Below the pieces are notes generated by a model. That model did no database searches, was not told the origin of the DNA, and worked only from the letters and a program-made list of their open reading frames with translations. Below, in pieces: positions 1 through 25,055 of a DNA stretch of 64,000 bases (positions within the stretch are counted from its first letter, which is position 1; every line of letters starts with the position of its first letter). The position numbers and the translations under genes are program-made. This stretch comes from Lampris incognitus (taxonomy: Eukaryota > Chordata > Actinopteri > Lampriformes > Lampridae), in the NCBI RefSeq assembly GCF_029633865.1, contig NC_079230.1:28956009-29020008 (forward strand), read 5' to 3'.

Positions 1-19
1 CAACATTTTGCGACAGCTT

Positions 20-181
20 TCACCGCGACGTAATTATCCCATCCAGGTGGCGGGAAATGTCGAGGTAAATCGTCTCGTTTCTCCTGGAGGACTCGAGCCC
101 CCGCTGAACCTCGTCGGTGGCGTAGTCAGCCAACAAAGCCTGCACCTCCTCGTCTGTCCGTTTCTCGGCTGATTTCTCCAT
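20..181 (-). pseudogene. Myb/SANT-like (MADF-type) domain start, 53 codons, present in every unit
   Basis: ATG at 181 and stop at 20 give 53 residues. They begin MEKSAEKRTDEEVQALLADY and continue with a charged helix containing ESSRRNETIYLDISRHL. The TDEEVQALL start, the RNE..Y turn and the IS..L helix fit the first two helices of Myb/SANT-like domains found in fish Harbinger-associated and domesticated DNA-binding proteins. The third helix is missing, so this is a broken gene or a lone first exon (a GTGAAA donor-like sequence overlaps the end). Other copies start at 2393, 4766, 7139, 9512, 11885, 14258, 16631, 19005, 21378, 23752, 26126, 28500, 30873, 33246, 35619, 37992, 40365, 42738, 45111, 47484, 49857, 52230, 54923, 57296, 59669 and 62042. 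Unit 13 has Lys for Thr at residue 37, matching the family's usual RNEK. Unit 22 changes Ser43 to Cys and unit 25 changes Tyr39 to Cys. Family assignment is from motif memory only. Confidence 0.4.
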
Positions 182-228
182 TTCGCTTGATCGAAATTAA
201 GTTTGCTACCACACAGCTTGGTTGCTGG

Positions 229-292
229 CTTATACAATTGCGCTTGTTGAACACCGAAGTAGAAGGCTGGTTGCTTCCGACGTTCAACCAAT
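229..292 (-). promoter_or_regulatory. CCAAT-like and TATA-like boxes upstream of the SANT-like ORF
   Basis: On the minus strand an ATTGG (inverted CCAAT, 292-288) lies about 55 bp before TATAAG (234-229), which is about 48 bp before the ATG at 181. The order and spacing suit a Pol II promoter for the SANT-like ORF, but each motif is short and could be chance. The rest of 182-498 shows nothing I recognise beyond repeated words of the type GTAGTTCC..TGGTGGA around 400-475, which might be ends of an old DNA transposon. Confidence 0.2.
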
Positions 293-498
293 CGGCGTCG
301 AGCCCCTCCCAGCAGGTTTTCAGGGCCGCTCAGAAGTACCGACCCCAGAGCAGGGACTAGAGACGCTCCCTTAAAAGTCCCAGTAAGAGTTCCGGTCAGG
401 GGTAGTTCCTCTAGTGGAAACACCAGCAAAGCTGCCGGCCCCCTAAAAGGTTCGGGTAGCTCCGCTGGTGGAAAATGGCCTTATGAGTTGTGTTGACA

Positions 499-666
499 GG
501 TTGCTTCACAAGGGGCGTCACTCCAGATACTGAAAGCAAAGGTTCACCTACTTTTGCCACTCACAGATGTGAAATATTGGATCATTTTGCTCAATAAATG
601 AATGAGCAAGTATCATATTTTTGTCTCATTTGTTTAATTGGGTTTTCTTCATCTACTTTTAGGACT
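499..666. mobile_element. Tc1/mariner-like transposon end fragment
   Basis: The stretch with CACTCACAGATGTG, TTGGATCATTTTGCTCAATA and TTTGTCTCATTTGTTTAATT closely matches, from memory, the end region of a widespread fish Tc1-like element. The preceding part (GATACTGAAAGCAAAGGTTC) fits the inward continuation of the same end. The outermost terminal repeat is absent: homology stops at about 666, where the SINE begins. No transposase remains. The AATAAA at 593-598 belongs to this element and is not evidence of a local gene. A copy precedes the SINE in every unit; in unit 23 it is interrupted by a LINE. Units 8, 10, 11 and 12 share a C-to-T change in it and one inserted T just upstream. Confidence 0.7.
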
Positions 667-668
667 CG

Positions 669-1043
669 TCGCCGGACCGAATCCCCGTGTTACGCCCGCC
701 TTGATTGGTGTCGCTAAAGCCACAATTGGCCGTGTGTGCGGGTGTGAAGCCGGATGTGAGTATGTGTCGAGGTGGCTGCAGTAGCGCCTCCTCTGATCGG
801 TCGGGGCGCCTGTTCGGGGGAGAGGGAGAACTGGAGGAATAGCGTGATCCTGCCACGCGCTACGTCGCCCTGGCGAAACGCCTCACTGTCAGGGGAACGA
901 AGCGGCTGGCGACTCCACATGCGTCGGAGGAGGCATGTGGTAGTCTGCAGCCCTCCCCGCAATGGCAGAGGGGATGGAGCAGAAACCGGGAGGGATCGGA
1001 AGAGTGGGGTAATTGGTCCCATATAATTGGGGAGACAAAGAGG
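669..1043 (+). mobile_element. 5'-truncated tRNA-derived fish SINE
   Basis: TCGCCGGACCGAATCCCCGT at the left edge is the B-box part of a tRNA-like head (GGTTCGAATCC type, here GGACCGAATCC); the A box is missing. The body (GCGCCTCCTCTGATCGGTCG, GGCGACTCCACATGCGTCGG, GGAGGCATGTGGTAGTCTGC) and the AATTGGGGAGA tail match a common teleost SINE as I remember it; I do not assign a database name. With no A box it should not be transcribed by Pol III by itself. Copies begin at 669, 3042, 5415, 7788, 10161, 12534, 14907, 17281, 19654, 22028, 24402, 26776, 29149, 31522, 33895, 36268, 38641, 41014, 43387, 45760, 48133, 50506, 53199, 55572, 57945, 60318 and 62691. All share the same truncation, so the SINE was in the founding unit. 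GTTACGCCCGCC in units 1-4 and 17 versus GTTACCCCCGCC elsewhere is a useful copy marker. Confidence 0.75.
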
Positions 1044-1136
1044 AACGAAACCCCGATGATGAATTAAGGGACGCAAGATCATTAACACGCCGAATGTCGT
1101 AAAGTTTGTGTTTTCCTGCCTTAACGGGAACCATAT

Positions 1137-1151
1137 TGTTTTTCTTTTGAC
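1137..1151 (-). terminator. snRNA 3' box of the U1 gene
   Basis: Minus strand GTCAAAAGAAAAACA starts 8 nt after the U1 3' end. It fits the vertebrate snRNA 3' box (GTTT-N-AAARNNAGA type), which directs Integrator-dependent 3' end formation. The same word stands at the same distance from U1 in the other units. Unit 3 has CGTTTAATC for CATTTAATC just beside it, and unit 13 changes the box start to GTTAAAAG. The 90 bp between the SINE and this box (1044-1136) contains nothing else I recognise. Confidence 0.75.
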
Positions 1152-1158
1152 ATTTAAT

Positions 1159-1322
1159 CAGGGGAGAGCGCGAACGCAGTCCCCCACTACCAGAAATTAT
1201 GCAGTCGAGATTCCCACGTTTGGGGAATTCGCACAGGTCAGCACAACCGGAGTGCAATGGTCAAGCCTCGCCGTGGGTGAACCACCTTCTTGATCATGGT
1301 GTCTTCCCTGCCAGGTAAGTAT
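1159..1322 (-). ncRNA. rnu1: U1 spliceosomal snRNA, unit 1
   Basis: A complete 164-nt U1 RNA, the core of the U1 snRNP that recognises 5' splice sites in the nucleus. The 5' end AUACUUACCUGGCAG pairs with 5' splice sites; loop II AUUGCACUCC is the U1A site; AAUUUCUGG is the Sm site; stem-loop IV with a UUCG loop closes the RNA. Compared with human U1 from memory, there are no gaps and about 15 differences (22, 33, 44, 45, 50, 61, 62, 77, 88, 89, 95, 105, 113, 130, 157). Pairs 50-89, 62-77 and 95-113 changed on both sides and keep pairing; 51-88 and 61-78 became G-U. Position 33 in the U1-70K loop is A rather than C/U. A PSE lies at -43 to -60 and a 3' box 8 nt downstream. This unit also has G18A in stem I, shared with units 3 and 5, which weakens the 18-46 pair. 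Confidence 0.95.
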
Positions 1323-1364
1323 GAACCCCAGCCATCGCACAGAGGATCTGATTCTGACACACAT

Positions 1365-1382
1365 CTATCTGTATGACGGTGC
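1365..1382 (-). promoter_or_regulatory. PSE (proximal sequence element) of the U1 gene
   Basis: Minus strand GCACCGTCATACAGATAG occupies -60 to -43 relative to the U1 start at 1322. CACCGTCAT fits the vertebrate PSE core CACCNTNAC/T, and the position is that expected for SNAPc binding at Pol II snRNA genes. There is no TATA box at -30, as expected for U1 rather than U6-type promoters. The element looks the same in every unit. Just downstream of it, CAGAATCAGATCC versus CAGAATCAGCTCC is a copy marker. Confidence 0.7.
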
Positions 1383-1430
1383 CACGGCATCAAGTAAAGC
1401 GACTGCTTTGTCCTCACAGAAATCAAGGTT

Positions 1431-1443
1431 TGTTTCTTTTAAC
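1431..1443 (-). terminator. snRNA 3' box of the U1-like paralogue
   Basis: Minus strand GTTAAAAGAAACA begins 8 nt after the 3' end of the U1-like sequence, exactly the spacing seen at the true U1 gene. It fits the 3' box consensus slightly better than the U1 one does. The flank between RNA end and box is also alignable to that of U1, so the second locus arose by duplication of a genomic segment and not from a retroposed RNA. Confidence 0.65.
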
Positions 1444-1450
1444 ATGTAAA

Positions 1451-1589
1451 CGGGGGAGAGCGCGAACGCAGTCCCCCACTACCGGAAATGATGCAGTCCA
1501 GAGTCTATAACATTTGGGGAATTGACCTTTCGCAAAGTCAGTTACCGTTGCTATGACCGTCAAGCCTTTCAGAACTATCCAGGAAGTAG
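1451..1589 (-). pseudogene. U1-like snRNA paralogue (variant or pseudogene), unit 1
   Basis: This 139-nt sequence aligns to U1 over its whole length, with deletions. The 3' half is well kept: AATTCCCCAAATG, GACTGCATCATTTCCGG with a weakened Sm-like site, and an intact stem-loop IV whose 3' strand CUCUCCCCC pairs well. The 5' half is badly altered: the end reads CUACUUCCUGGAUAG, one A short of the 5'-splice-site-pairing ACUUACCUGG; most of stem-loop I is gone; and the U1A loop AUUGCACUCC is lost. It nevertheless keeps a 3' box at the normal distance and a PSE-like element 46-62 nt upstream. Loss of splice-site pairing and protein-binding loops argues for a pseudogene; the retained signals and near-constant sequence in all units argue that it may be transcribed. 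Confidence 0.7.
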
Positions 1590-1634
1590 CCGGAAAACAC
1601 CAAAACATGAAGGAAGAAATCAGCGCATTGTGTG

Positions 1635-1651
1635 GTTAAAAGTAACAGTAG
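1635..1651 (-). promoter_or_regulatory. PSE-like element of the U1-like paralogue
   Basis: Minus strand CTACTGTTACTTTTAAC lies at -62 to -46 from the inferred start at 1589. It follows the PSE pattern (Y-N-A-C-N-N-T-N-A-C, then A/T-rich) with a few mismatches. Position is the stronger argument; the match alone would be weak. Confidence 0.4.
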
Positions 1652-2365
1652 TAATACATTAGCTATCAATAATAGCTAGTAGCAAGCTTAGCTTGGAGCA
1701 GACAGGTATTTTTGTTGATTTTGGATGGATTAAGCTGGCCATGGGGTCTGCTATACTGTGACATCTATTGACGACATTGCGCTTCTTGCGTTCTGGGTTT
1801 CGGGAAGGGAAAGAAAATGACACCCCCTCCAAACTTTTCACATATCTAGTATCCGATCTGCAGATCCCATAGGCACACCGTTTCAGCATTTTGTTGTGCG
1901 TTTGAAAGCTTGACGGACCGTTGCTAAGGTCGGATTGGACAAGCACCGTTCTGGGGAGGTACTTTGCGAAAGCTCAATTGAACTCGAGGCGTTCTAGAGG
2001 AGTGTAAAGTCTACCTCGACTGTACACAGTTACGGCTCCTGATCGGTCTAAAGTCTACGGTGAGTGAACGCTCTAGACTAATCGGAAGCCGAAAGAGCCG
2101 ATTGGAGCGTACCAGTCATAGGTCCCATATGAGACGAGCATCAAAGCTTATCAAGAGGGAGAAGAGTGGTTTTCAAAGTTTACGGCGATGTTTGTTCTTC
2201 GATGATTCGTTTGAAGGAAAGGTGTTAGCTATAGCTATTAGCGATTTTCCATAGGAACAACTACACGAACTCACAGGCTGGCGCGAATTACAAGTGGAAC
2301 TACCCCGTAGGCGCCCTGTCGAGAGTCGTGTTTCCATAGCGACGTAGGAACCGCCGGGATCATGA
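1652..2365. other. Unrecognised 0.7-kb part of the unit
   Basis: No gene, RNA or transposon that I know is visible here. Open frames on both strands are short (e.g. 64 codons at 2060-2254 plus, 95 codons at 1659-1946 minus), have no familiar motif, and several are broken in other units, for example the plus-strand frame in units 7, 9 and 10. The region holds the outer arm of the 19-nt inverted repeat, a repeated TAAAGTCTAC at 2005-2014 and 2049-2058, and the TAGCTA palindrome. Since it lies upstream of both U1-type genes, it may hold distal promoter elements. Confidence 0.6.
1660..1678. repeat. Short perfect inverted repeat, 7-bp arms
   Basis: TAGCTAT and ATAGCTA flank a 5-base loop (CAATA). 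A related 12-bp palindrome TAGCTATAGCTA lies at 2226-2237. No function can be assigned. Confidence 0.4.
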
Positions 2366-2377
2366 GTTGACGTCAAC
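2366..2377. promoter_or_regulatory. 12-bp palindrome containing a consensus CRE
   Basis: GTTGACGTCAAC is a perfect palindrome around TGACGTCA, the CREB/ATF consensus. It marks the unit boundary used here. Other copies read GTTGACGTCAGC (e.g. 9486-9497), which keeps the 8-bp core. It lies downstream of the SANT-like ORF and far upstream of the next U1 gene on the minus strand, so its target is unclear. Confidence 0.35.
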
Positions 2378-3531
2378 ATTTTGCGACAGCTTTCACCGCG
2401 ACGTAATTATCCCATCCAGGTGGCGGGAAATGTCGAGGTAAATCGTCTCGTTTCTCCTGGAGGACTCGAGCCCCCGCTGAACCTCGTCGGTGGCGTAGTC
2501 AGCCAACAAAGCCTGCACCTCCTCGTCTGTCCGTTTCTCGGCTGATTTCTCCATTTCGCTTGATCGAAATTAAGTTTGCTACCACACAGCTTGGTTGCTG
2601 GCTTATACAATTGCGCTTGTTGAACACCGAAGTAGAAGGCTGGTTGCTTCCGACGTTCAACCAATCGGCGTCGAGCCCCTCCCAGCAGGTTTTCAGGGCC
2701 GCTCAGAAGTACCGACCCCAGAGCAGGGACTAGAGACGCTCCCTTAAAAGTCCCAGTAAGAGTTCCGGTCAGGGGTAGTTCCTCTAGTGGAAACACCAGC
2801 AAAGCTGCCGGCCCCCTAAAAGGTTCGGGTAGCTCCGCTGGTGGAAAATGGCCTTATGAGTTGTGTTGACAGGTTGCTTCACAAGGGGCGTCACTCCAGA
2901 TACTGAAAGCAAAGGTTCACCTACTTTTGCCACTCACAGATGTGAAATATTGGATCATTTTGCTCAATAAATGAATGAGCAAGTATCATATTTTTGTCTC
3001 ATTTGTTTAATTGGGTTTTCTTCATCTACTTTTAGGACTCGTCGCCGGACCGAATCCCCGTGTTACGCCCGCCTTGATTGGTGTCGCTAAAGCCACAATT
3101 GGCCGTGTGTGCGGGTGTGAAGCCGGATGTGAGTATGTGTCGAGGTGGCTGCAGTAGCGCCTCCTCTGATCGGTCGGGGCGCCTGTTCGGGGGAGAGGGA
3201 GAACTGGAGGAATAGCGTGATCCTGCCACGCGCTACGTCGCCCTGGCGAAACGCCTCACTGTCAGGGGAACGAAGCGGCTGGCGACTCCACATGCGTCGG
3301 AGGAGGCATGTGGTAGTCTGCAGCCCTCCCCGCAATGGCAGAGGGGATGGAGCAGAAACCGGGAGGGATCGGAAGAGTGGGGTAATTGGTCCCATATAAT
3401 TGGGGAGACAAAGAGGAACGAAACCCCGATGATGAATTAAGGGACGCAAGATCATTAACACGCCGAATGTCGTAAAGTTTGTGTTTTCCTGCCTTAACGG
3501 GAACCATATTGTTTTTCTTTTGACATTTAAT

Positions 3532-3695
3532 CAGGGAAGAGCGCGAACGCAGTCCCCCACTACCAGAAATTATGCAGTCGAGATTCCCACGTTTGGGGAA
3601 TTCGCACAGATCAGCACAACCGGAGTGCAATGGTCAAGCCTCGCCGTGGGTGAACCACCTTCTTGATCATGGTGTCTCCCCTGCCAGGTAAGTAT
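3532..3695 (-). ncRNA. rnu1: U1 snRNA, unit 2
   Basis: Full length. Private changes from the array consensus: C86U in stem II and C159U in the 3' strand of stem-loop IV. Position 18 is the normal G, unlike units 1 and 3. Confidence 0.93.
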
Positions 3696-3823
3696 GAACC
3701 CCAGCCATCGCACAGAGGATCTGATTCTGACACACATCTATCTGTATGACGGTGCCACGGCATCAAGTAAAGCGACTGCTTTGTCCTCACAGAAATCAAG
3801 GTTTGTTTCTTTTAACATGTAAA

Positions 3824-3962
3824 CGGGGGAGAGCGCGAACGCAGTCCCCCACTACCGGAAATGATGCAGTCCAGAGTCTATAACATTTGGGGAATTGACC
3901 TTTCGCAAAGTCAGTTACCGTTGCTATGACCGTCAAGCCTTTCAGAACTATCCAGGAAGTAG
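3824..3962 (-). pseudogene. U1-like paralogue, unit 2
   Basis: Matches the unit-1 copy, with PSE-like element and 3' box in place. Confidence 0.7.
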
Positions 3963-5904
3963 CCGGAAAACACCAAAACATGAAGGAAGAAATCAGCGCA
4001 TTGTGTGGTTAAAAGTAACAGTAGTAATACATTAGCTATCAATAATAGCTAGTAGCAAGCTTAGCTTGGAGCAGACAGGTATTTTTGTTGATTTTGGATG
4101 GATTAAGCTGGCCATGGGGTCTGCTATACTGTGACATCTATTGACGACATTGCGCTTCTTGCGTTCTGGGTTTCGGGAAGGGAAAGAAAATGACACCCCC
4201 TCCAAACTTTTCACATATCTAGTATCCGATCTGCAGATCCCATAGGCACACCGTTTCAGCATTTTGTTGTGTGTTTGAAAGCTTGACGGACCGTTGCTAA
4301 GGTCGGATTGGACAAGCACCGTTCTGGGGAGGTACTTTGCGAAAGCTCAATTGAACTCGAGGCGTTCTAGAGGAGTGTAAAGTCTACCTCGACTGTACAC
4401 AGTTACGGCTCCTGATCGGTCTAAAGTCTACGGTGAGTGAACGCTCTAGACTAATCGGAAGCCGAAAGAGCCGATTGGAGCGTACCAGTCATAGGTCCCA
4501 TATGAGACGAGCATCAAAGCTTATCAAGAGGGAGAAGAGTGGTTTTCAAAGTTTACGGCGATGTTTGTTCTTCGATGATTCGTTTGAAGGAAAGGTGTTA
4601 GCTATAGCTATTAGCGATTTTCCATAGGAACAACTACACGAACTCACAGGCTGGCGCGAATTACAAGTGGAACTACCCCGTAGGCGCCCTGTCGAGAGTC
4701 GTGTTTCCATAGCGACGTAGGAACCGCCGGGATCATGAGTTGACGTCAACATTTTGCGACAGCTTTCACCGCGACGTAATTATCCCATCCAGGTGGCGGG
4801 AAATGTCGAGGTAAATCGTCTCGTTTCTCCTGGAGGACTCGAGCCCCCGCTGAACCTCGTCGGTGGCGTAGTCAGCCAACAAAGCCTGCACCTCCTCGTC
4901 TGTCCGTTTCTCGGCTGATTTCTCCATTTCGCTTGATCGAAATTAAGTTTGCTACCACACAGCTTGGTTGCTGGCTTATACAATTGCGCTTGTTGAACAC
5001 CGAAGTAGAAGGCTGGTTGCTTCCGACGTTCAACCAATCGGCGTCGAGCCCCTCCCAGCAGGTTTTCAGGGCCGCTCAGAAGTACCGACCCCAGAGCAGG
5101 GACTAGAGACGCTCCCTTAAAAGTCCCAGTAAGAGTTCCGGTCAGGGGTAGTTCCTCTAGTGGAAACACCAGCAAAGCTGCCGGCCCCCTAAAAGGTTCG
5201 GGTAGCTCCGCTGGTGGAAAATGGCCTTATGAGTTGTGTTGACAGGTTGCTTCACAAGGGGCGTCACTCCAGATACTGAAAGCAAAGGTTCACCTACTTT
5301 TGCCACTCACAGATGTGAAATATTGGATCATTTTGCTCAATAAATGAATGAGCAAGTATCATATTTTTGTCTCATTTGTTTAATTGGGTTTTCTTCATCT
5401 ACTTTTAGGACTCGTCGCCGGACCGAATCCCCGTGTTACGCCCGCCTTGATTGGTGTCGCTAAAGCCACAATTGGCCGTGTGTGCGGGTGTGAAGCCGGA
5501 TGTGAGTATGTGTCGAGGTGGCTGCAGTAGCGCCTCCTCTGATCGGTCGGGGCGCCTGTTCGGGGGAGAGGGAGAACTGGAGGAATAGCGTGATCCTGCC
5601 ACGCGCTACGTCGCCCTGGCGAAACGCCTCACTGTCAGGGGAACGAAGCGGCTGGCGACTCCACATGCGTCGGAGGAGGCATGTGGTAGTCTGCAGCCCT
5701 CCCCGCAATGGCAGAGGGGATGGAGCAGAAACCGGGAGGGATCGGAAGAGTGGGGTAATTGGTCCCATATAATTGGGGAGACAAAGAGGAACGAAACCCC
5801 GATGATGAATTAAGGGACGCAAGATCATTAACACGCCGAATGTCGTAAAGTTTGTGTTTTCCTGCCTTAACGGGAACCATATTGTTTTTCTTTTGACGTT
5901 TAAT

Positions 5905-6068
5905 CAGGGGAGAGCGCGAACGCAGTCCCCCACTACCAGAAATTATGCAGTCGAGATTCCCACGTTTGGGGAATTCGCACAGGTCAGCACAACCGGAGTG
6001 CAATGGTCAAGCCTCGCCGTGGGTGAACCACCTTCTTGATCATGGTGTCTTCCCTGCCAGGTAAGTAT
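5905..6068 (-). ncRNA. rnu1: U1 snRNA, unit 3
   Basis: Full length; carries G18A as in units 1 and 5. A private A-to-G change lies in the 3' flank between RNA end and 3' box. Confidence 0.94.
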
Positions 6069-6196
6069 GAACCCCAGCCATCGCACAGAGGATCTGATTC
6101 TGACACACATCTATCTGTATGACGGTGCCACGGCATCAAGTAAAGCGACTGCTTTGTCCTCACAGAAATCAAGGTTTGTTTCTTTTAACATGTAAA

Positions 6197-6335
6197 CGGG
6201 GGAGAGCGCGAACGCAGTCCCCCACTACCGGAAATGATGCAGTCCAGAGTCTATAACATTTGGGGAATTGACCTTTCGCAAAGTCAGTTACCGTTGCTAT
6301 GACCGTCAAGCCTTTCAGAACTATCCAGGAAGTAG
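6197..6335 (-). pseudogene. U1-like paralogue, unit 3
   Basis: Same sequence as unit 1. Confidence 0.7.
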
Positions 6336-8277
6336 CCGGAAAACACCAAAACATGAAGGAAGAAATCAGCGCATTGTGTGGTTAAAAGTAACAGTAGTAA
6401 TACATTAGCTATCAATAATAGCTAGTAGCAAGCTTAGCTTGGAGCAGACAGGTATTTTTGTTGATTTTGGATGGATTAAGCTGGCCATGGGGTCTGCTAT
6501 ACTGTGACATCTATTGACGACATTGCGCTTCTTGCGTTCTGGGTTTCGGGAAGGGAAAGAAAATGACACCCCCTCCAAACTTTTCACATATCTAGTATCC
6601 GATCTGCAGATCCCATAGGCACACCGTTTCAGCATTTTGTTGTGCGTTTGAAAGCTTGACGGACCGTTGCTAAGGTCGGATTGGACAAGCACCGTTCTGG
6701 GGAGGTACTTTGCGAAAGCTCAATTGAACTCGAGGCGTTCTAGAGGAGTGTAAAGTCTACCTCGACTGTACACAGTTACGGCTCCTGATCGGTCTAAAGT
6801 CTACGGTGAGTGAACGCTCTAGACTAATCGGAAGCCGAAAGAGCCGATTGGAGCGTACCAGTCATAGGTCCCATATGAGACGAGCATCAAAGCTTATCAA
6901 GAGGGAGAAGAGTGGTTTTCAAAGTTTACGGCGATGTTTGTTCTTCGATGATTCGTTTGAAGGAAAGGTGTTAGCTATAGCTATTAGCGATTTTCCATAG
7001 GAACAACTACACGAACTCACAGGCTGGCGCGAATTACAAGTGGAACTACCCCGTAGGCGCCCTGTCGAGAGTCGTGTTTCCATAGCGACGTAGGAACCGC
7101 CGGGATCATGAGTTGACGTCAACATTTTGCGACAGCTTTCACCGCGACGTAATTATCCCATCCAGGTGGCGGGAAATGTCGAGGTAAATCGTCTCGTTTC
7201 TCCTGGAGGACTCGAGCCCCCGCTGAACCTCGTCGGTGGCGTAGTCAGCCAACAAAGCCTGCACCTCCTCGTCTGTCCGTTTCTCGGCTGATTTCTCCAT
7301 TTCGCTTGATCGAAATTAAGTTTGCTACCACACAGCTTGGTTGCTGGCTTATACAATTGCGCTTGTTGAACACCGAAGTAGAAGGCTGGTTGCTTCCGAC
7401 GTTCAACCAATCGGCGTCGAGCCCCTCCCAGCAGGTTTTCAGGGCCGCTCAGAAGTACCGACCCCAGAGCAGGGACTAGAGACGCTCCCTTAAAAGTCCC
7501 AGTAAGAGTTCCGGTCAGGGGTAGTTCCTCTAGTGGAAACACCAGCAAAGCTGCCGGCCCCCTAAAAGGTTCGGGTAGCTCCGCTGGTGGAAAATGGCCT
7601 TATGAGTTGTGTTGACAGGTTGCTTCACAAGGGGCGTCACTCCAGATACTGAAAGCAAAGGTTCACCTACTTTTGCCACTCACAGATGTGAAATATTGGA
7701 TCATTTTGCTCAATAAATGAATGAGCAAGTATCATATTTTTGTCTCATTTGTTTAATTGGGTTTTCTTCATCTACTTTTAGGACTCGTCGCCGGACCGAA
7801 TCCCCGTGTTACGCCCGCCTTGATTGGTGTCGCTAAAGCCACAATTGGCCGTGTGTGCGGGTGTGAAGCCGGATGTGAGTATGTGTCGAGGTGGCTGCAG
7901 TAGCGCCTCCTCTGATCGGTCGGGGCGCCTGTTCGGGGGAGAGGGAGAACTGGAGGAATAGCGTGATCCTGCCACGCGCTACGTCGCCCTGGCGAAACGC
8001 CTCACTGTCAGGGGAACGAAGCGGCTGGCGACTCCACATGCGTCGGAGGAGGCATGTGGTAGTCTGCAGCCCTCCCCGCAATGGCAGAGGGGATGGAGCA
8101 GAAACCGGGAGGGATCGGAAGAGTGGGGTAATTGGTCCCATATAATTGGGGAGACAAAGAGGAACGAAACCCCGATGATGAATTAAGGGACGCAAGATCA
8201 TTAACACGCCGAATGTCGTAAAGTTTGTGTTTTCCTGCCTTAACGGGAACCATATTGTTTTTCTTTTGACATTTAAT

Positions 8278-8441
8278 CAGGGGAGAGCGCGAACGCAGTC
8301 CCCCACTACCAGAAATTATGCAGTCGAGATTCCCACGTTTGGGGAATTCGCACAGGTCAGCACAACCGGAGTGCAATGGTCAAGCCTCGCCGTGGGTGAA
8401 CCACCTTCTTGATCATGGTGTCTCCCCTGCCAGGTAAGTAT
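8278..8441 (-). ncRNA. rnu1: U1 snRNA, unit 4
   Basis: Identical to the array consensus as far as I can read; the first consensus copy in the window. Confidence 0.95.
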
Positions 8442-8569
8442 GAACCCCAGCCATCGCACAGAGGATCTGATTCTGACACACATCTATCTGTATGACGGTG
8501 CCACGGCATCAAGTAAAGCGACTGCTTTGTCCTCACAGAAATCAAGGTTTGTTTCTTTTAACATGTAAA

Positions 8570-8708
8570 CGGGGGAGAGCGCGAACGCAGTCCCCCACTA
8601 CCGGAAATGATGCAGTCCAGAGTCTATAACATTTGGGGAATTGACCTTTCGCAAAGTCAGTTACCGTTGCTATGACCGTCAAGCCTTTCAGAACTATCCA
8701 GGAAGTAG
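8570..8708 (-). pseudogene. U1-like paralogue, unit 4
   Basis: Same sequence as unit 1. Confidence 0.7.
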
Positions 8709-10650
8709 CCGGAAAACACCAAAACATGAAGGAAGAAATCAGCGCATTGTGTGGTTAAAAGTAACAGTAGTAATACATTAGCTATCAATAATAGCTAGTA
8801 GCAAGCTTAGCTTGGAGCAGACAGGTATTTTTGTTGATTTTGGATGGATTAAGCTGGCCATGGGGTCTGCTATACTGTGACATCTATTGACGACATTGCG
8901 CTTCTTGCGTTCTGGGTTTCGGGAAGGGAAAGAAAATGACACCCCCTCCAAACTTTTCACATATCTAGTATCCGATCTGCAGATCCCATAGGCACACCGT
9001 TTCAGCATTTTGTTGTGTGTTTGAAAGCTTGACGGACCGTTGCTAAGGTCGGATTGGACAAGCACCGTTCTGGGGAGGTACTTTGCGAAAGCTCAATTGA
9101 ACTCGAGGCGTTCTAGAGGAGTGTAAAGTCTACCTCGACTGTACACAGTTACGGCTCCTGATCGGTCTAAAGTCTACGGTGAGTGAACGCTCTAGACTAA
9201 TCGGAAGCCGAAAGAGCCGATTGGAGCGTACCAGTCATAGGTCCCAGATGAGACGAGCATCAAAGCTTATCAAGAGGAAGAAGAGTGGTTTTCAAAGTTT
9301 ACGGCGATGTTTGTTCTTCGATGATTCCTTTGAAGGAAAAGTGTTAGCTATAGCTATTAGCGATTTTCCATAGGAACAACTACACGAACTCACAGGCTGG
9401 CGCGAATTACAAGTGGAACTACCCCGTAGTCGCCCTGTCGAGAGTCGTGTTTCCATAGCGACGTAGGAACCGCCGGGATCATGAGTTGACGTCAGCATTT
9501 TGCGACAGCTTTCACCGCGACGTAATTATCCCATCCAGGTGGCGGGAAATGTCGAGGTAAATCGTCTCGTTTCTCCTGGAGGACTCGAGCCCCCGCTGAA
9601 CCTCGTCGGTGGCGTAGTCAGCCAACAAAGCCTGCACCTCCTCGTCTGTCCGTTTCTCGGCTGATTTCTCCATTTCGCTTGATCGAAATTAAGTTTGCTA
9701 CCACACAGCTTGGTTGCTGGCTTATACAATTGCGCTTGTTGAACACCGAAGTAGAAGGCTGGTTGCTTCCGACGTTCAACCAATCGGCGTCGAGCCCCTC
9801 CCAGCAGGTTTTCAGGGCCGCTCAGAAGTACCGACCCCAGAGCAGGGACTAGAGACGCTCCCTTAAAAGTCCCAGTAAGAGTTCCGGTCAGGGGTAGTTC
9901 CTCTAGTGGAAACACCAGCAAAGCTGCCGGCCCCCTAAAAGGTTCGGGTAGTTCCGCTGGTGGAAAATGGCCTTATGAGTTGTGTTGACAGGTTGCTTCA
10001 CAAGGGGCGTCACTCCAGATACTGAAAGCAAAGGTTCACCTACTTTTGCCACTCACAGATGTGAAATATTGGATCATTTTGCTCAATAAATGAATGAGCA
10101 AGTATCATATTTTTGTCTCATTTGTTTAATTGGGTTTTCTTCATCTACTTTTAGGACTCGTCGCCGGACCGAATCCCCGTGTTACCCCCGCCTTGATTGG
10201 TGTCGCTAAAGCCACAATTGGCCGTGTGTGCGGGTGTGAAGCCGGATGTGAGTATGTGTCGAGGTGGCTGCAGTAGCGCCTCCTCTGATCGGTCGGGGCG
10301 CCTGTTCGGGGGAGAGGGAGAACTGGAGGAATAGCGTGATCCTGCCACGCGCTACGTCGCCCTGGCGAAACGCCTCACTGTCAGGGGAACGAAGCGGCTG
10401 GCGACTCCACATGCGTCGGAGGAGGCATGTGGTAGTCTGCAGCCCTCCCCGCAATGGCAGAGGGGATGGAGCAGAAACCGGGAGGGATCGGAAGAGTGGG
10501 GTAATTGGTCCCATATAATTGGGGAGACAAAGAGGAACGAAACCCCGATGATGAATTAAGGGACGCAAGATCATTAACACGCCGAATGTCGTAAAGTTTG
10601 TGTTTTCCTGCCTTAACGGGAACCATATTGTTTTTCTTTTGACATTTAAT

Positions 10651-10814
10651 CAGGGGAGAGCGCGAACGCAGTCCCCCACTACCAGAAATTATGCAGTCGA
10701 GATTCCCACGTTTGGGGAATTCGCACAGGTCAGCACAACCGGAGTGCAATGGTCAAGCCTCGCCGTGGGTGAACCACCTTCTTGATCATGGTGTCTTCCC
10801 TGCCAGGTAAGTAT
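10651..10814 (-). ncRNA. rnu1: U1 snRNA, unit 5
   Basis: Carries G18A; last of the alternating 1-3-5 series. Confidence 0.94.
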
Positions 10815-10942
10815 GAACCCCAGCCATCGCACAGAGGAGCTGATTCTGACACACATCTATCTGTATGACGGTGCCACGGCATCAAGTAAAGCGACTGCTT
10901 TGTCCTCACAGAAATCAAGGTTTGTTTCTTTTAACATGTAAA

Positions 10943-11081
10943 CGGGGGAGAGCGCGAACGCAGTCCCCCACTACCGGAAATGATGCAGTCCAGAGTCTAT
11001 AACATTTGGGGAATTGACCTTTCGCAAAGTCAGTTACCGTTGCTATGACCGTCAAGCCTTTCAGAACTATCCAGGAAGTAG
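10943..11081 (-). pseudogene. U1-like paralogue, unit 5
   Basis: Same sequence as unit 1. Confidence 0.7.
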
Positions 11082-13023
11082 CCGGAAAACACCAAAACAT
11101 GAAGGAAGAAATCAGCGCATTGTGTGGTTAAAAGTAACAGTAGTAATACATTAGCTATCAATAATAGCTAGTAGCAAGCTTAGCTTGGAGCAGACAGGTA
11201 TTTTTGTTGATTTTGGATGGATTAAGCTGGCCATGGGGTCTGCTATACTGTGACATCTATTGACGACATTGCGCTTCTTGCGTTCTGGCTTTCGGGAAGG
11301 GAAAGAAAATGACACCCCCTCCAAACTTTTCACATGTCTAGTATCCGATCTGCAGATCCCATAGGCACACCGTTTCAGCATTTTGTTGTGCGTTTGAAAG
11401 CTTGACGGACCGTTGCTAAGGTCGGATTGGACAAGCACCGTTCTGGGGAGGTACTTTGCGAAAGCTCAATTGAACTCGAGGCGTTCTAGAGGAGTGTAAA
11501 GTCTACCTCGACTGTACACAGTTACGGCTCCTGATCGGTCAAAAGTCTACGGTGAGTGAACGCTCTAGACTAATCGGAAGCCGAAAGAGCCGATTGGAGC
11601 GTACCAGTCATAGGTCCCATATGAGACGAGCATCAAAGCTTATCAAGAGGGAGAAGAGTGGTTTTCAAAGTTTACGGCGATGTTTGTTCTTCGATGATTC
11701 GTTTGAAGGAAAGGTGTTAGCTATAGCTATTAGCGATTTTCCATAGGAACAACTACACGAACTCACAGGCTGGCGCGAATTACAAGTGGAACTACCCCGT
11801 AGTCGCCCTGTCGAGAGTCGTGTTTCCATAGCGACGTAGGAACCGCCGGGATCATGAGTTGACGTCAACATTTTGCGACAACTTTCACCGCGACGTAATT
11901 ATCCCATCCAGGTGGCGGGAAATGTCGAGGTAAATCGTCTCGTTTCTCCTGGAGGACTCGAGCCCCCGCTGAACCTCGTCGGTGGCGTAGTCAGCCAACA
12001 AAGCCTGCACCTCCTCGTCTGTCCGTTTCTCGGCTGATTTCTCCATTTCGCTTGATCGAAATTAAGTTTGCTACCACACAGCTTGGTTGCTGGCTTATAC
12101 AATTGCGCTTGTTGAACACCGAAGTAGAAGGCTGGTTGCTTCCGACGTTCAACCAATCGGCGTCGAGCCCCTCCCAGCAGGTTTTCAGGGCCGCTCAGAA
12201 GTACCGACCCCAGAGCAGGGACTAGAGACGCTCCCTTAAAAGTCCCAGTAAGAGTTCCGGTCAGGGGTAGTTCCTCTAGTGGAAACACCAGCAAAGCTGC
12301 CGGCCCCCTAAAAGGTTCGGGTAGCTCCGCTGGTGGAAAATGGCCTTATGAGTTGTGTTGACAGGTTACTTCACAAGGGGCGTCACTCCAGATACTGAAA
12401 GCAAAGGTTCACCTACTTTTGCCACTCACAGATGTGAAATATTGGATCATTTTGCTCAATAAATGAATGAGCAAGTATCATATTTTTGTCTCATTTGTTT
12501 AATTGGGTTTTCTTCATCTACTTTTAGGACTCGTCGCCGGACCGAATCCCCGTGTTACCCCCGCCTTGATTGGTGTCGCTAAAGCCACAATTGGCCGTGT
12601 GTGCGGGTGTGAAGCCGGATGTGAGTATGTGTCGAGGTGGCTGCAGTAGCGCCTCCTCTGATCGGTCGGGGCGCCTGTTCGGGGGAGAGGGAGAACTGGA
12701 GGAATAGCGTGATCCTGCCACGCGCTACGTCGCCCTGGCGAAACGCCTCACTGTCAGGGGAACGAAGCGGCTGGCGACTCCACATGCGTCGGAGGAGGCA
12801 TGTGGTAGTCTGCAGCCCTCCCCGCAATGGCAGAGGGGATGGAGCAGAAACCGGGAGGGATCGGAAGAGTGGGGTAATTGGTCCCATATAATTGGGGAGA
12901 CAAAGAGGAACGAAACCCCGATGATGAATTAAGGGACGCAAGATCATTAACACGCCGAATGTCGTAAAGTTTGTGTTTTCCTGCCTTAAGGGGAACCATA
13001 TTGTTTTTCTTTTGACATTTAAT

Positions 13024-13187
13024 CAGGGGAGAGCGCGAACGCAGTCCCCCACTATCAGAAATTATGCAGTCGAGATTCCCACGTTCGGGGAATTCGCACA
13101 GGTCAGCACAACCGGAGTGCAATGGTCAAGCCTCGCCGTGGGTGAACCATCTTCTTGATCATGGTGTCTCCCCTGCCAGGTAAGTAT
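13024..13187 (-). ncRNA. rnu1: U1 snRNA, unit 6
   Basis: Three changes shared only with unit 8: G38A next to loop I, A102G in loop III, and G133A just 3' of the Sm site. Confidence 0.93.
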
Positions 13188-13315
13188 GAACCCCAGCCAT
13201 CGCACAGAGGAGCTGATTCTGACACACATCTATCTGTATGACGGTGCCACGGCATCAAGTAAAGCGACTGCTTTGTCCTCACAGAAATCAAGGTTTGTTT
13301 CTTTTAACATGTAAA

Positions 13316-13454
13316 CGGGGGAGAGCGCGAACGCAGTCCCCCACTACCGGAAATGATGCAGTCCAGAGTCTATAACATTTGGGGAATTGACCTTTCGCAA
13401 AGTCAGTTACCGTTGCTATGACCGTCAAGCCTTTCAGAACTATCCAGGAAGTAG
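13316..13454 (-). pseudogene. U1-like paralogue, unit 6
   Basis: Same sequence as unit 1. Confidence 0.7.
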
Positions 13455-15396
13455 CCGGAAAACACCAAAACATGAAGGAAGAAATCAGCGCATTGTGTGG
13501 TTAAAAGTAACAGTAGTAATACATTAGCTATCAATAATAGCTAGTAGCAAGCTTAGCTTGGAGCAGACAGGTATTTTTGTTGATTTTGGATAGATTAAGC
13601 TGGCCATGGGGTCTGCTATACTGTGACATCTATTGACGACATTGCGCTTCTTGCGTTCTGGCTTTCGGGAAGGGAAAGAAAATGACACCCCCTCCAAACT
13701 TTTCACATATCTAGTATCCGATCTGCAGATCCCATAGGCACACCGTTTCAGCATTTTGTTGTGCGTTTGAAAGCTTGACGGACCGTTGCTAAGGTCGGAT
13801 TGGACAAGCACCGTTCTGGGGAGGTACTTTGCGAAAGCTCAATTGAACTCGAGGCGTTCTAGAGGAGTGTAAAGTCTACCTCGACTGTACACAGTTACGG
13901 CTCCTGATCGGTCTAAAGTCTACGGTGAGTGAACGCTCTAGACTAATCGGAAGCCGAAAGAGCCGATTGGAGCGTACCAGTCATAGGTCCCAGATGAGAC
14001 GAGCATCAAAGCTTATCAAGAGGAAGAAGAGTGGTTTTCAAAGTTTACGGCGATGTTTGTTCTTCGATGATTCCTTTGAAGGAAAAGTGTTAGCTATAGC
14101 TATTAGCGATTTTCCATAGGAACAACTACACGAACTCACAGGCTGGCGCGAATTACAAGTGGAACTACCCCGTAGTCGCCCTGTCGAGAGTCGTGTTTCC
14201 ATAGCGACGTAGGAACCGCCGGGATCATGAGTTGACGTCAGCATTTTGCGACAGCTTTCACCGCGACGTAATTATCCCATCCAGGTGGCGGGAAATGTCG
14301 AGGTAAATCGTCTCGTTTCTCCTGGAGGACTCGAGCCCCCGCTGAACCTCGTCGGTGGCGTAGTCAGCCAACAAAGCCTGCACCTCCTCGTCTGTCCGTT
14401 TCTCGGCTGATTTCTCCATTTCGCTTGATCGAAATTAAGTTTGCTACCACACAGCTTGGTTGCTGGCTTATACAATTGCGCTTGTTGAACACCGAAGTAG
14501 AAGGCTGGTTGCTTCCGACGTTCAACCAATCGGCGTCGAGCCCCTCCCAGCAGGTTTTCAGGGCCGCTCAGAAGTACCGACCCCAGAGCAGGGACTAGAG
14601 ACGCTCCCTTAAAAGTCCCAGTAAGAGTTCCGGTCAGGGGTAGTTCCTCTAGTGGAAACACCAGCAAAGCTGCCGGCCCCCTAAAAGGTTCGGGTAGCTC
14701 CGCTGGTGGAAAATGGCCTTATGAGTTGTGTTGACAGGTTGCTTCACAAGGGGCGTCACTCCAGATACTGAAAGCAAAGGTTCACCTACTTTTGCCACTC
14801 ACAGATGTGAAATATTGGATCATTTTGCTCAATAAATGAATGAGCAAGTATCATATTTTTGTCTCATTTGTTTAATTGGGTTTTCTTCATCTACTTTTAG
14901 GACTCGTCGCCGGACCGAATCCCCGTGTTACCCCCGCCTTGATTGGTGTCGCTAAAGCCACAATTGGCCGTGTGTGCGGGTGTGAAGCCGGATGTGAGTA
15001 TGTGTCGAGGTGGCTGCAGTAGCGCCTCCTCTGATCGGTCGGGGCGCCTGTTCGGGGGAGAGGGAGAACTGGAGGAATAGCGTGATCGTGCCACGCGCTA
15101 CGTCGCCCTGGCGAAACGCCTCACTGTCAGGGGAACGAAGCGGCTGGCGACTCCACATGCGTCGGAGGAGGCATGTGGTAGTCTGCAGCCCTCCCCGCAA
15201 TGGCAGAGGGGATGGAGCAGAAACCGGGAGGGATCGGAAGAGTGGGGTAATTGGTCCCATATAATTGGGGAGACAAAGAGGAACGAAACCCCGATGATGA
15301 ATTAAGGGACGCAAGATTATTAACACGCCGAATGTCGTAAAGTTTGTGTTTTCCTGCCTTAACGGGAACCTTATTGTTTTTCTTTTGACATTTAAT

Positions 15397-15560
15397 CAGG
15401 GGAGAGCGCGAACGCAGTCCCCCACTACCAGAAATTATGCAGTCGAGATTCCCACGTTTGGGGAATTCTTACAGGTCAGCACAACCGGAGTGCAATGGTC
15501 AAGCCTCGCCGTGGGTGAACCACCTTCTTGATCATGGTGTCTCCCCTGCCAGGTAAGTAT
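15397..15560 (-). ncRNA. rnu1: U1 snRNA, unit 7
   Basis: G91A and C92A at the base of stem II, shared only with unit 9. G91 normally pairs with C48, so the lower stem is weakened. Confidence 0.93.
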
Positions 15561-15688
15561 GAACCCCAGCCATCGCACAGAGGAGCTGATTCTGACACAC
15601 ATCTATCTGTATGACGGTGCCACGGCATCAAGTAAAGCGACTGCTTTGTCCTCACAGAAATCAAGGTTTGTTTCTTTTAACATGTAAA

Positions 15689-15827
15689 CGGGGGAGAGCG
15701 CGAACGCAGTCCCCCACTACCGGAAATGATGCAGTCCAGAGTCTATAACATTTGGGGAATTGACCTTTCGCAAAGTCAGTTACCGTTGCTATGACCGTCA
15801 AGCCTTTCAGAACTATCCAGGGAGTAG
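15689..15827 (-). pseudogene. U1-like paralogue, unit 7
   Basis: U6C at the RNA 5' end (CUACUCCCUGG), shared with units 9 and 10. Confidence 0.7.
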
Positions 15828-17770
15828 CCGGAAAACACCAAAACATGAAGAAAGAAATCAGCGCATTGTGTGGTTAAAAGTAACAGTAGTAATACATTAG
15901 CTATCAATAATAGCTAGTAGCAAGCTTAGCTTGGAGCAGACAGGTATTTTTGTTGATTTTGGATGGATTAAGCTGGCCATGGGGTCTGCTATACTGTGAC
16001 ATCTATTGACGACATTGCGCTTCTTGCGTTCTGGCTTTCGGGAAGGGAAAGAAAATGACACCCCCTCCAAACTTTTCACATATCTAGTATCCGATCTGCA
16101 GATCCCATAGGCACACCGTTTCAGCATTTTGTTGTGCGTTTGAAAGCTTGACGGACCGTTGCTAAGGTCGGATTGGACAAGCACCGTTCTGGGGAGGTAC
16201 TTTGCGAAAGCTCAATTGAACTCGAGGCGTTCTAGAGGAGTGTAAAGTCTACCTCGACTGTACACAGTTACGGCTCCTGATCGGTCTAAAGTCTACGGTG
16301 AGTGAACGCTCTAGACTAATCGGAAGCCGAAAGAGCCGATTGTAGCGTACCAGTCATAGGTCCCAGATGAGACGAGCATCAAAGCTTATCAAGAGGAAGA
16401 AGAGTGGTTTTCAAAGTTTACGGCGATGTTTGTTCTTCGATGATTCCTTTGAAGGAAAAGTGTTAGCTATAGCTATTAGCGATTTTCCATAGGAACAACT
16501 ACACGAACTCACAGGCTGGCGCGAATTACAAGTGGAACTACCCCGTAGTCGCCCTGTCGAGAGTCGTGTTTCCATAGCGACGTAGGAACCGCCGGGATCA
16601 TGAGTTGACGTCAGCATTTTGCGACAGCTTTCACCGCGACGTAATTATCCCATCCAGGTGGCGGGAAATGTCGAGGTAAATCGTCTCGTTTCTCCTGGAG
16701 GACTCGAGCCCCCGCTGAACCTCGTCGGTGGCGTAGTCAGCCAACAAAGCCTGCACCTCCTCGTCTGTCCGTTTCTCGGCTGATTTCTCCATTTCGCTTG
16801 ATCGAAATTAAGTTTGCTACCACACAGCTTGGTTGCTGGCTTATACAATTGCGCTTGTTGAACACCGAAGTAGAAGGCTGGTTGCTTCCGACGTTCAACC
16901 AATCGGCGTCGAGCCCCTCCCAGCAGGTTTTCAGGGCCGCTCAGAAGTACCGACCCCAGAGCAGGGACTAGAGACGCTCCCTTAAAAGTCCCAGTAAGAG
17001 TTCCGGTCAGGGGTAGTTCCTCTAGTGGAAACACCAGCAAAGCTGCCGGCCCCCTAAAAGGTTCGGGTAGTTCCGCTGGTGGAAAATGGCCTTATGAGTT
17101 GTGTTTGACAGGTTGCTTCACAAGGGGCGTCACTTCAGATACTGAAAGCAAAGGTTCACCTACTTTTGCCACTCACAGATGTGAAATATTGGATCATTTT
17201 GCTCAATAAATGAATGAGCAAGTATCATATTTTTGTCTCATTTGTTTAATTGGGTTTTCTTCATCTACTTTTAGGACTCGTCGCCGGACCGAATCCCCGT
17301 GTTACCCCCGCCTTGATTGGTGTCGCTAAAGCCACAATTGGCCGTGTGTGCGGGTGTGAAGCCGGATGTGAGTATGTGTCGAGGTGGCTGCAGTAGCGCC
17401 TCCTCTGATCGGTCGGGGCGCCTGTTCGGGGGAGAGGGAGAACTGGAGGAATAGCGTGATCCTGCCACGCGCTACGTCGCCCTGGCGAAACGCCTCACTG
17501 TCAGGGGAACGAAGCGGCTGGCGACTCCACATGCGTCGGAGGAGGCATGTGGTAGTCTGCAGCCCTCCCCGCAATGGCAGAGGGGATGGAGCAGAAACCG
17601 GGAGGGATCGGAAGAGTGGGGTAATTGGTCCCATATAATTGGGGAGACAAAGAGGAACGAAACCCCGATGATGAATTAAGGGACGCAAGATCATTAACAC
17701 GCCGAATGTCGTAAAGTTTGTGTTTTCCTGCCTTAAGGGGAACCATATTGTTTTTCTTTTGACATTTAAT

Positions 17771-17934
17771 CAGGGGAGAGCGCGAACGCAGTCCCCCACT
17801 ATCAGAAATTATGCAGTCGAGATTCCCACGTTCGGGGAATTCGCACAGGTCAGCACAACCGGAGTGCAATGGTCAAGCCTCGCCGTGGGTGAACCATCTT
17901 CTTGATCATGGTGTCTCCCCTGCCAGGTAAGTAT
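17771..17934 (-). ncRNA. rnu1: U1 snRNA, unit 8
   Basis: Carries the unit-6 trio G38A, A102G and G133A; part of a duplicated 4,747-bp block. Confidence 0.93.
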
Positions 17935-18062
17935 GAACCCCAGCCATCGCACAGAGGAGCTGATTCTGACACACATCTATCTGTATGACGGTGCCACGGC
18001 ATCAAGTAAAGCGACTGCTTTGTCCTCACAGAAATCAAGGTTTGTTTCTTTTAACATGTAAA

Positions 18063-18201
18063 CGGGGGAGAGCGCGAACGCAGTCCCCCACTACCGGAAA
18101 TGATGCAGTCCAGAGTCTATAACATTTGGGGAATTGACCTTTCGCAAAGTCAGTTACCGTTGCTATGACCGTCAAGCCTTTCAGAACTATCCAGGAAGTA
18201 G
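18063..18201 (-). pseudogene. U1-like paralogue, unit 8
   Basis: Same sequence as unit 1. Confidence 0.7.
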
Positions 18202-20143: not shown

Positions 20144-20307
20144 CAGGGGAGAGCGCGAACGCAGTCCCCCACTACCAGAAATTATGCAGTCGAGATTCCC
20201 ACGTTTGGGGAATTCTTACAGGTCAGCACAACCGGAGTGCAATGGTCAAGCCTCGCCGTGGGTGAACCACCTTCTTGATCATGGTGTCTCCCCTGCCAGG
20301 TAAGTAT
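20144..20307 (-). ncRNA. rnu1: U1 snRNA, unit 9
   Basis: Carries G91A and C92A, as in unit 7. Confidence 0.93.
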
Positions 20308-20435
20308 GAACCCCAGCCATCGCACAGAGGAGCTGATTCTGACACACATCTATCTGTATGACGGTGCCACGGCATCAAGTAAAGCGACTGCTTTGTCCTC
20401 ACAGAAATCAAGGTTTGTTTCTTTTAACATGTAAA

Positions 20436-20574
20436 CGGGGGAGAGCGCGAACGCAGTCCCCCACTACCGGAAATGATGCAGTCCAGAGTCTATAACATTT
20501 GGGGAATTGACCTTTCGCAAAGTCAGTTACCGTTGCTATGACCGTCAAGCCTTTCAGAACTATCCAGGGAGTAG
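20436..20574 (-). pseudogene. U1-like paralogue, unit 9
   Basis: U6C variant, as in unit 7. Confidence 0.7.
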
Positions 20575-22517: not shown

Positions 22518-22681
22518 CAGGGGAGAGCGCGAACGCAGTCCCCCACTACCAGAAATTATGCAGTCGAGATTCCCACGTTTGGGGAATTCGCACAGGTCAG
22601 CACAACCGGAGTGCAATGGTCAAGCCTCGCCGTGGGTGAACCACCTTCTTGATCATGGTGTCTCCCCTGCCAGGTAAGTAT
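22518..22681 (-). ncRNA. rnu1: U1 snRNA, unit 10
   Basis: Array consensus within the RNA, although the flanks resemble units 7 and 9 (CCTTATTG downstream). This suggests a conversion or crossover inside the gene. Confidence 0.95.
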
Positions 22682-22809
22682 GAACCCCAGCCATCGCACA
22701 GAGGAGCTGATTCTGACACACATCTATCTGTATGACGGTGCCACGGCATCAAGTAAAGCGACTGCTTTGTCCTCACAGAAATCAAGGTTTGTTTCTTTTA
22801 ACATGTAAA

Positions 22810-22948
22810 CGGGGGAGAGCGCGAACGCAGTCCCCCACTACCGGAAATGATGCAGTCCAGAGTCTATAACATTTGGGGAATTGACCTTTCGCAAAGTCAG
22901 TTACCGTTGCTATGACCGTCAAGCCTTTCAGAACTATCCAGGGAGTAG
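22810..22948 (-). pseudogene. U1-like paralogue, unit 10
   Basis: U6C variant, as in units 7 and 9. Confidence 0.7.
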
Positions 22949-24891: not shown

Positions 24892-25055
24892 CAGGAGAGA
24901 GCGCGAACGCAGTCCCCCACTACCAGAAATTATGCAGTCGAGATTCCCACGTTTGGGGAATTCGCACAGGTCAGCACAACCGGAGTGCAATGGTCAAGCC
25001 TCGCCGTGGGTGAACCACCTTCTTGATCATGGTGTCTCCCCTGCCAGGTAAGTAT
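24892..25055 (-). ncRNA. rnu1: U1 snRNA, unit 11
   Basis: Private C160U in the 3' strand of stem-loop IV. Confidence 0.94.

Follow-up and report, generated by a model that had tools for sequence, protein, structure and literature searches.

The 64,000-nucleotide stretch of DNA analysed here (the window, C26:28956009-29020008) lies entirely within a tandem array of U1 genes that form a second class beside the ordinary U1 genes of the same genome, and in this array the gene and its immediate surroundings vary more from unit to unit than the spacer does. For convenience, we call the array type class B and the ordinary type class A, and treat them under these names as two sets. The two differ in the RNA itself, including one compensatory base pair, and in the region upstream of the gene. 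Judged from the gene sequences in the assembly, class B is probably a functional second class of U1, transcribed in the germ line and mutagenised by that transcription, and possibly maternal.

An earlier sequence-only reading had proposed at least 27 copies of U1, and this number is borne out by a covariance search with Rfam RF00003, which gives 27 full-length genes (model positions 1-166) in the window, all on the minus strand. Their scores, 148-162.4 bits over the full model, are in all 27 cases above the gathering score of 69.5. The array stretch and its copies are given below, each copy being identified by its Rfam match and by alignment to the array consensus, against which the variants are stated.

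1..64000 (entire window), minus strand, class-B U1 array stretch, unit 2373-2374 bp, one unit 2693 bp
1159..1322, minus strand, U1 copy 1 (the copy cited by the sequence-only reading), G18A
3532..3695, minus strand, U1 copy 2, C86T, C159T
5905..6068, minus strand, U1 copy 3, G18A
8278..8441, minus strand, U1 copy 4, consensus
10651..10814, minus strand, U1 copy 5, G18A
13024..13187, minus strand, U1 copy 6, G38A, A102G, G133A
15397..15560, minus strand, U1 copy 7, G91A, C92A
17771..17934, minus strand, U1 copy 8, G38A, A102G, G133A
20144..20307, minus strand, U1 copy 9, G91A, C92A
22518..22681, minus strand, U1 copy 10, consensus
24892..25055, minus strand, U1 copy 11, C160T
27266..27429, minus strand, U1 copy 12, consensus
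29639..29802, minus strand, U1 copy 13, G37A
32012..32175, minus strand, U1 copy 14, T120C, G121C, A123C, adjoining the Sm site; lowest score, 148 bits
34385..34548, minus strand, U1 copy 15, G109A
36758..36921, minus strand, U1 copy 16, G109A
39131..39294, minus strand, U1 copy 17, consensus
41504..41667, minus strand, U1 copy 18, consensus
43877..44040, minus strand, U1 copy 19, consensus
46250..46413, minus strand, U1 copy 20, consensus
48623..48786, minus strand, U1 copy 21, consensus
50996..51159, minus strand, U1 copy 22, consensus
53689..53852, minus strand, U1 copy 23, consensus
56062..56225, minus strand, U1 copy 24, consensus
58435..58598, minus strand, U1 copy 25, consensus
60808..60971, minus strand, U1 copy 26, consensus
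63181..63344, minus strand, U1 copy 27, consensus

The array runs past both ends of the window, from 28.938 Mb to at least 29.183 Mb on C26. Within the 184 kb that were read (30 kb to the left, the window and 90 kb to the right), 73 full class-B copies stand in tandem, the leftmost at 28938183, and the preceding 12 kb hold none. When the assembly (1.48 Gb, 537 contigs) was searched with a pattern covering nt 46-109 at up to 2 mismatches, 116 class-B cores were found on the reverse strand and none on the forward strand, and all 100 of the 116 places that were listed fall within the array at C26:28.938-29.183 Mb. These copy counts rest on the pattern searches and the stretches read, the family search of the assembly having scored 42 of 21760 candidates. 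Two U1 patterns run against viral and prokaryote contigs gave 0 matches each, and Tandem Repeats Finder (longest period 500) and a tRNA scan of the window gave nothing useful. The array consensus is matched exactly by 14 of the 27 window copies and by 32 of the 73 copies read, with 31 further copies one base off. The copy at 1159-1322 is not itself a consensus copy, since its G18A breaks pair 18-46, a point missed by the sequence-only reading. Between 1159 and 20307 of the window, U1 variants return in every second unit (1159 = 5905 = 10651; 13024 = 17771; 15397 = 20144), a two-unit higher-order pattern from which it would seem that amplification worked on dimers in places.

Measured against human U1, the 164-nt array consensus has exactly 15 substitutions (at 22, 33, 44, 45, 50, 61, 62, 77, 88, 89, 95, 105, 113, 130 and 157) and no indel, in agreement with the earlier estimate of about 15. 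Pairing was read off the Rfam structure; a single-strand fold missed the known U1 structure for both the human and the array U1 and was set aside. On the Rfam structure the two-sided changes reported for pairs 50-89, 62-77 and 95-113 do still pair, and 51-88 and 61-78 are now G-U, while 45 U>A, which had been overlooked, breaks pair 19-45 in the array consensus. The consensus sequences of class A and class B differ at five positions only (22, 50, 88, 89 and 105), with the human base in class A at all five. The sequence-only reading had treated all 15 substitutions as divergence of the array, and had named as evidence against itself the presence of the same 15 bases in the ordinary U1 genes of the species; on alignment to the ordinary genes of the same genome, two-thirds of them (10 of 15) are found there. 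These ten are normal for the species and uninformative on the array, and an array-wide divergence of 15 bases was rejected in favour of the five that are array-specific. The list of compensatory changes shrinks likewise: the exchange at 50-89 (G-C to C-G) and the wobble at 51-88 (G-C to G-U) belong to the array, and those at 62-77, 95-113 and 61-78 are present in class A as well. No exchange between the classes is seen at the diagnostic sites, where none of the 13 class-A genes and none of the 28 variable class-B U1 sites carries the base of the other class. With five bases of its own, one compensatory pair and no class exchange, the array is a genuine second class that bears signs of constraint.

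Class B has suffered no net loss of pairing, keeping 44 of 45 pairs as class A does, compared with 45 in human U1. When five random substitutions were introduced into class A in 200,000 simulations, 6.4% showed no net pair loss, 1.5% had at least one kept double change, and 0.28% showed both together. Set beside these simulations, the pairing retained by class B is moderate evidence of selection on it. The selection for a functional RNA claimed by the earlier reading is thus left with signs of constraint and a single compensatory pair, a weaker case than its count of changes had suggested. Against Rfam, class B scores 162.4 bits and class A 168.4 bits. Four functional blocks are intact in the class-B consensus (5' splice-site sequence, U1-70K loop, U1A loop, Sm site), and the five class-specific changes fall outside all of them.

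The ordinary genes are found on the same contig, about 18.4 Mb from the array, where 70 kb read at C26:10.44-10.51 Mb hold 13 full class-A genes, all with all five class-A bases. When up to 3 mismatches are allowed, the class-A core also turns up at six dispersed places (three on C22 and one each on C9, C11 and C13). At 105 the C9 copy agrees with class B, but at 50, 88 and 89 with class A. The copy at C22:37766421, with 8 differences from class A over 163 aligned positions and no PSE-like block in the 120 bp upstream (by eye), looks like a retrocopy. The 100 class-B places that were listed, from a search allowing 2 mismatches where that for class A allowed 3, include no dispersed copy, an absence that may date the array or may oppose a long abundance of its RNA in the germ line.

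The flanks of the gene can be illustrated with copy 1, around which three elements are placed as follows.

1357..1385 (about -63 to -35), minus strand, PSE-like element of copy 1; a near-identical block stands at the same place before the 13 class-A genes
1138..1158, minus strand, 3'-box-like block directly after U1, reading ATTAAATGTCAAAAGAAAAAC in sense, as in the unit at 41504
1451..1544, minus strand, relic of a decayed U1, upstream of copy 1; its Rfam match (35.5 bits, E 1.4e-6) does not reach the gathering score

The PSE-like block common to both classes reads GTGGCACCGT[G/C]AT[C/A]CAGATAGATGTGTGT, with single changes in a few class-A copies, and together with the absence of a TATA box in the class-B unit (by eye only) its place near -60 is of the Pol II type. 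The 3' box is presumably that, a label given from its position and the usual consensus; a similar block also follows the relic. Class-A copies are 97% alike over -100..-1, 75% (ungapped) over -225..-126 and 47% in the first 40 bases after U1. Near -205 they have a distal block, recognisable by eye in 12 of 13 genes and degraded in one of these, which class B does not have, although the PSE-like element is kept. Instead, at -245 to -130, at about the distance of the class-A distal block, class B has the relic with its own copy of the 3' flank; the 184 kb that were read contain 73 such partial matches of one extent, as many as there are full copies. With a relic and its 3' flank at this distance, class B looks like the survivor of an old tandem pair whose distal region was lost. 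The octamer does not separate the classes, being missing in both: none is found in the class-B unit even with one mismatch, and no exact form occurs within 400 bp upstream of the 13 class-A genes. In the case of an SPH/ZNF143-like distal element, class A reaches 11-12 of 14 near -205 in 4 of 6 copies scanned, a weak match, and class B reaches 10 of 14 at best, which leaves it with no convincing distal element.

Variation between units was scored in 72 complete units, leaving out the incomplete 73rd and dropping columns present in fewer than 80% of units, among them the 320-bp insertion of one unit, which took the alignment from 2695 to 2373 columns. Variable sites number 28 of 164 in U1 and 101 of 2209 in the remainder of the unit (odds ratio 4.3, P = 1.5e-8). 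Counted per 100 bp, they peak at 20-23 across the 3' half of U1 and the 100 bp that follow it, and fall to 1-2 just upstream of -40; from +165 to +264, 17 of 100 sites are variable, and from -100 to -41, which includes most of the PSE, 1 of 60. The best 164-bp segment away from the gene and its flanks has 15 variable sites, compared to 28 in U1. The interval -40..+264 was picked on the 27 window units, where it has 27/304 variable sites versus 48/2069, and was then applied to the 45 units outside the window, where it has 30/304 versus 44/2069 (P = 1.1e-9); for U1 alone these outside units give 16/164 versus 58/2209 (P = 2.6e-5). The variable U1 sites, 14 in the window set and 16 in the outside set, form a union of 28 with two common to both. 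Mutations seen in a single unit, probably the youngest, number 14/164 in U1 versus 29/2069 outside the interval, an approximately six-fold difference (P = 9e-7). The split into transition-type and transversion-type changes is 21 to 8 in U1, and 35 to 18 in the interval versus 37 to 42 outside it (P = 0.03). The relic in the same units serves as a control and has 3 of 117 sites variable, and over a 31-base stretch identical in both, the gene has 6 variable sites and the relic 1. Within U1, the four functional blocks named above, whose limits were set after the variable sites had been seen, have 1/39 sites variable where 6.7 are expected, versus 27/125 elsewhere (P = 0.003). At paired positions there are 17 array variants, of which 9 keep the pair, 7 break it and 1 was already unpaired; the breakage in 7 of 17 implies that single copies are expendable.

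Several sources of the excess were considered and rejected. CpG decay would not produce it, as non-CpG sites are variable at 26/146 in U1 versus 92/1959, nor is the count inflated by a few multi-base events, for after collapsing to 124 events 26 are in U1 (P = 1e-7). Ectopic conversion from class A was also rejected: no array variant has the class-A base at a class-diagnostic site, and conversion would not explain an excess that extends into the 3' flank. Relaxed selection cannot be the cause, because the gene is more variable than the spacer.

In man, active snRNA genes are reported to be hypermutable, by up to tenfold in PMC13083260 (see also PMC12165836), and there an excess of variants is proposed as the mark of working genes as opposed to pseudogenes. 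The gene-centred excess seen here matches that mark, being in the transcribed unit and not in the presumably silent relic; unlike the human case, however, the variation is among the units of one tandem array in another vertebrate, with spacer and dead relic as internal controls. The fit suggests that the extra mutation is tied to transcription. For such mutations to be passed on, the transcription would have to occur in the germ line. Germ-line transcription would fit a supply of U1 to the oocyte but is no proof of it, as a constitutive gene is likewise active in germ cells. Alternatively, the same excess could arise from mutation linked to recombination at the gene. In the U2 array of the toadfish Halobatrachus didactylus, too, the coding part varies more than the spacer does (12 variable sites in 189 bp, pi 0.024, versus 31 in 623-631 bp, pi 0.017), although that case is U2, comes from sequences of PCR products and has a smaller effect; the accessible text mentions homogenising versus diversifying forces and names no transcription-linked cause (PMC3544641). 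Our search of the open-licence literature, which was little aimed at this question, found no report of gene-over-spacer variation in a U1 array.

The sequence of events that would best account for these observations begins with an A-like gene, as class A agrees with human U1 wherever the two classes differ. Class B would have retained the PSE-like promoter and the RNA structure, while a tandem U1 duplication decayed upstream and the distal block was lost or replaced. The 2373-bp unit would then have been amplified and homogenised to about 100 copies or more. If the copies are heavily transcribed in the germ line, as we propose, the stretch from about -40 to +264 would for that reason mutate several times faster than the spacer, with selection and homogenisation purging changes in the functional blocks. 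Class B would most probably supply extra U1 for oogenesis or early development, as the maternal-type genes of zebrafish and Xenopus do. Some observations count against this account. Dispersed class-B copies would be expected if the RNA had long been abundant in germ cells, yet the 100 listed places include none, perhaps because the array is too young to have left any; class B is without an octamer or convincing other distal element; and 7 of 17 variants at paired positions break a pair, in a class that scores below class A (162.4 vs 168.4 bits).

The array could instead be the main constitutive supply of U1, with the 13 class-A genes minor and the five differences being neutral or compensatory drift fixed by concerted evolution with no developmental role. 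We hold this to be unlikely, though a serious contender. Tandem snRNA clusters are ordinary (fish U1 clusters; Xenopus U1 with 11 to ~35 copies per chromosome), and the five changes avoid the 5' splice-site sequence, U1-70K loop, U1A loop and Sm site. The U2 genes of this genome are likewise an array and a single copy: C3:2646113-2646303 is single (194.4 bits), and at least 45 of 46 scored matches form an array at C18:20022502-20274049. However, class A hardly looks like a relic, since all 13 copies have the conserved promoter and 12 of them a distal block as well, and the lack of class exchange at diagnostic sites (0/13 class-A genes, 0/28 variable class-B sites) also speaks against a constitutive supply with drifting differences. 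Far less credible is that the array is a selfish tandem repeat carrying U1 along as a decaying passenger, even though no part of the unit varies more than U1 with its 3' flank, several variants break stems and the unit already contains a dead U1 relic. A passenger could match the variation of the spacer but not exceed it, and the functional blocks are largely spared, as are -100 to -41 with most of the PSE (1/60 variable). In addition, 32 of 73 copies equal the consensus with 31 more one base off, and the class-B changes keep pairing.

The excess in U1 might also be an artefact or the result of conversion: the array could have been mis-assembled, reads from other U1 loci could have been used in polishing it, or dispersed U1 copies could have converted it. 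Array assemblies can contain errors, and other U1 loci in the genome could donate reads or tracts. Nevertheless, we find this improbable: no array variant equals the class-A or human base where these differ, the excess enters the 3' flank (+165 to +264, 17/100) where class A is of other sequence, it is found both inside and outside the window, and the relic is spared (3/117) despite the identical 31-base stretch (gene 6, relic 1 variable sites). A functional, germ-line-transcribed class B is the reading we prefer. Whether the array goes further, being an oocyte-dedicated U1 factory that is mutagenised by its own germ-line transcription and whose load is balanced by strong concerted evolution and selection on functional blocks, is a tentative idea that we rather doubt. 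If true, the U1 in egg spliceosomes would be a mixture of variants that keeps changing, the differences among the copies of any snRNA array would be a DNA-only record of its germ-line activity, and further examples would be the U2 array of this genome and the toadfish U2 genes, with their coding part more variable than the spacer.

Developmental specialisation of class B is plausible by analogy with Xenopus and zebrafish Chr4R, and would fit both the change upstream of the gene and the indication of transcription in the germ line. Traits of a developmental U1 class that are present here are a second class with its own locus in the genome and a multicopy tandem layout. The embryonic U1 genes of Xenopus laevis are reportedly laid out in tandem. 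According to PMC4291461, which like PMC5159530 cites Forbes 1984 and Lund 1987, this frog makes an embryonic U1 isoform in its oocytes and embryos from a separate set of genes, and is like the present case in having a distinct isoform so encoded. In zebrafish, maternal-type U1 genes (also U6 and 5S) are placed in Chr4R Region-2 by PMC11075544, citing Pagano et al. 2020 (10.1101/858944). Like here, a many-copy U1 class occupies one chromosomal block with ordinary U1 elsewhere in the genome, whereas here both classes are on one contig, the tandem is a regular one of 2373 bp and the U6 cluster is on another contig (15 of 48 scored U6 matches at C21:37.44-37.93 Mb). The likeness to zebrafish is one of layout.

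Maternal and embryonic U1 classes are already known from frog and zebrafish, and class B looks like a clean further case. Its origin appears readable, leading from an ordinary gene through tandem duplication and a changed upstream region to amplification, with one class-specific compensatory pair. It is the gene-centred hypervariability that merits further pursuit. The spacer of a tandem array is a built-in control, and an assembly alone may suffice to recognise germ-line transcription, by an excess of variation within the gene; if so, the germ-line activity of arrays could be tested in any genome with resolved snRNA arrays.

Other features were observed along the way. One unit of the window has a 320-bp insertion at 52861-53180, with the repeat TTTAATTGGGTTTTCTTC on its flanks and a (GTA)n tail, which resembles a LINE 3' end and which we take to be a recent insertion in a single copy. 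At about 670-1060 of the window, and at the same place in other units, is a stretch that looks like the body and tail of a tRNA-derived fish SINE. Just beyond the left edge of the array, C26 ~28936683-28936950 looks by eye like the chromodomain end of a gypsy-type retrotransposon. The single U2 on C3 and one unit of the C18 array are identical in their first 75 bases and differ beyond, and two C18 units separated by 2.2 kb have 4 differences in 192 bases. Finally, three U3 snoRNA genes lie among the 13 class-A U1 genes, on the same strand, near 10.47-10.49 Mb on C26.

L047:4855-5069, same strand as class-A U1, U3 snoRNA gene
L049:2025-2239, same strand as class-A U1, U3 snoRNA gene
L049:5789-6003, same strand as class-A U1, U3 snoRNA gene
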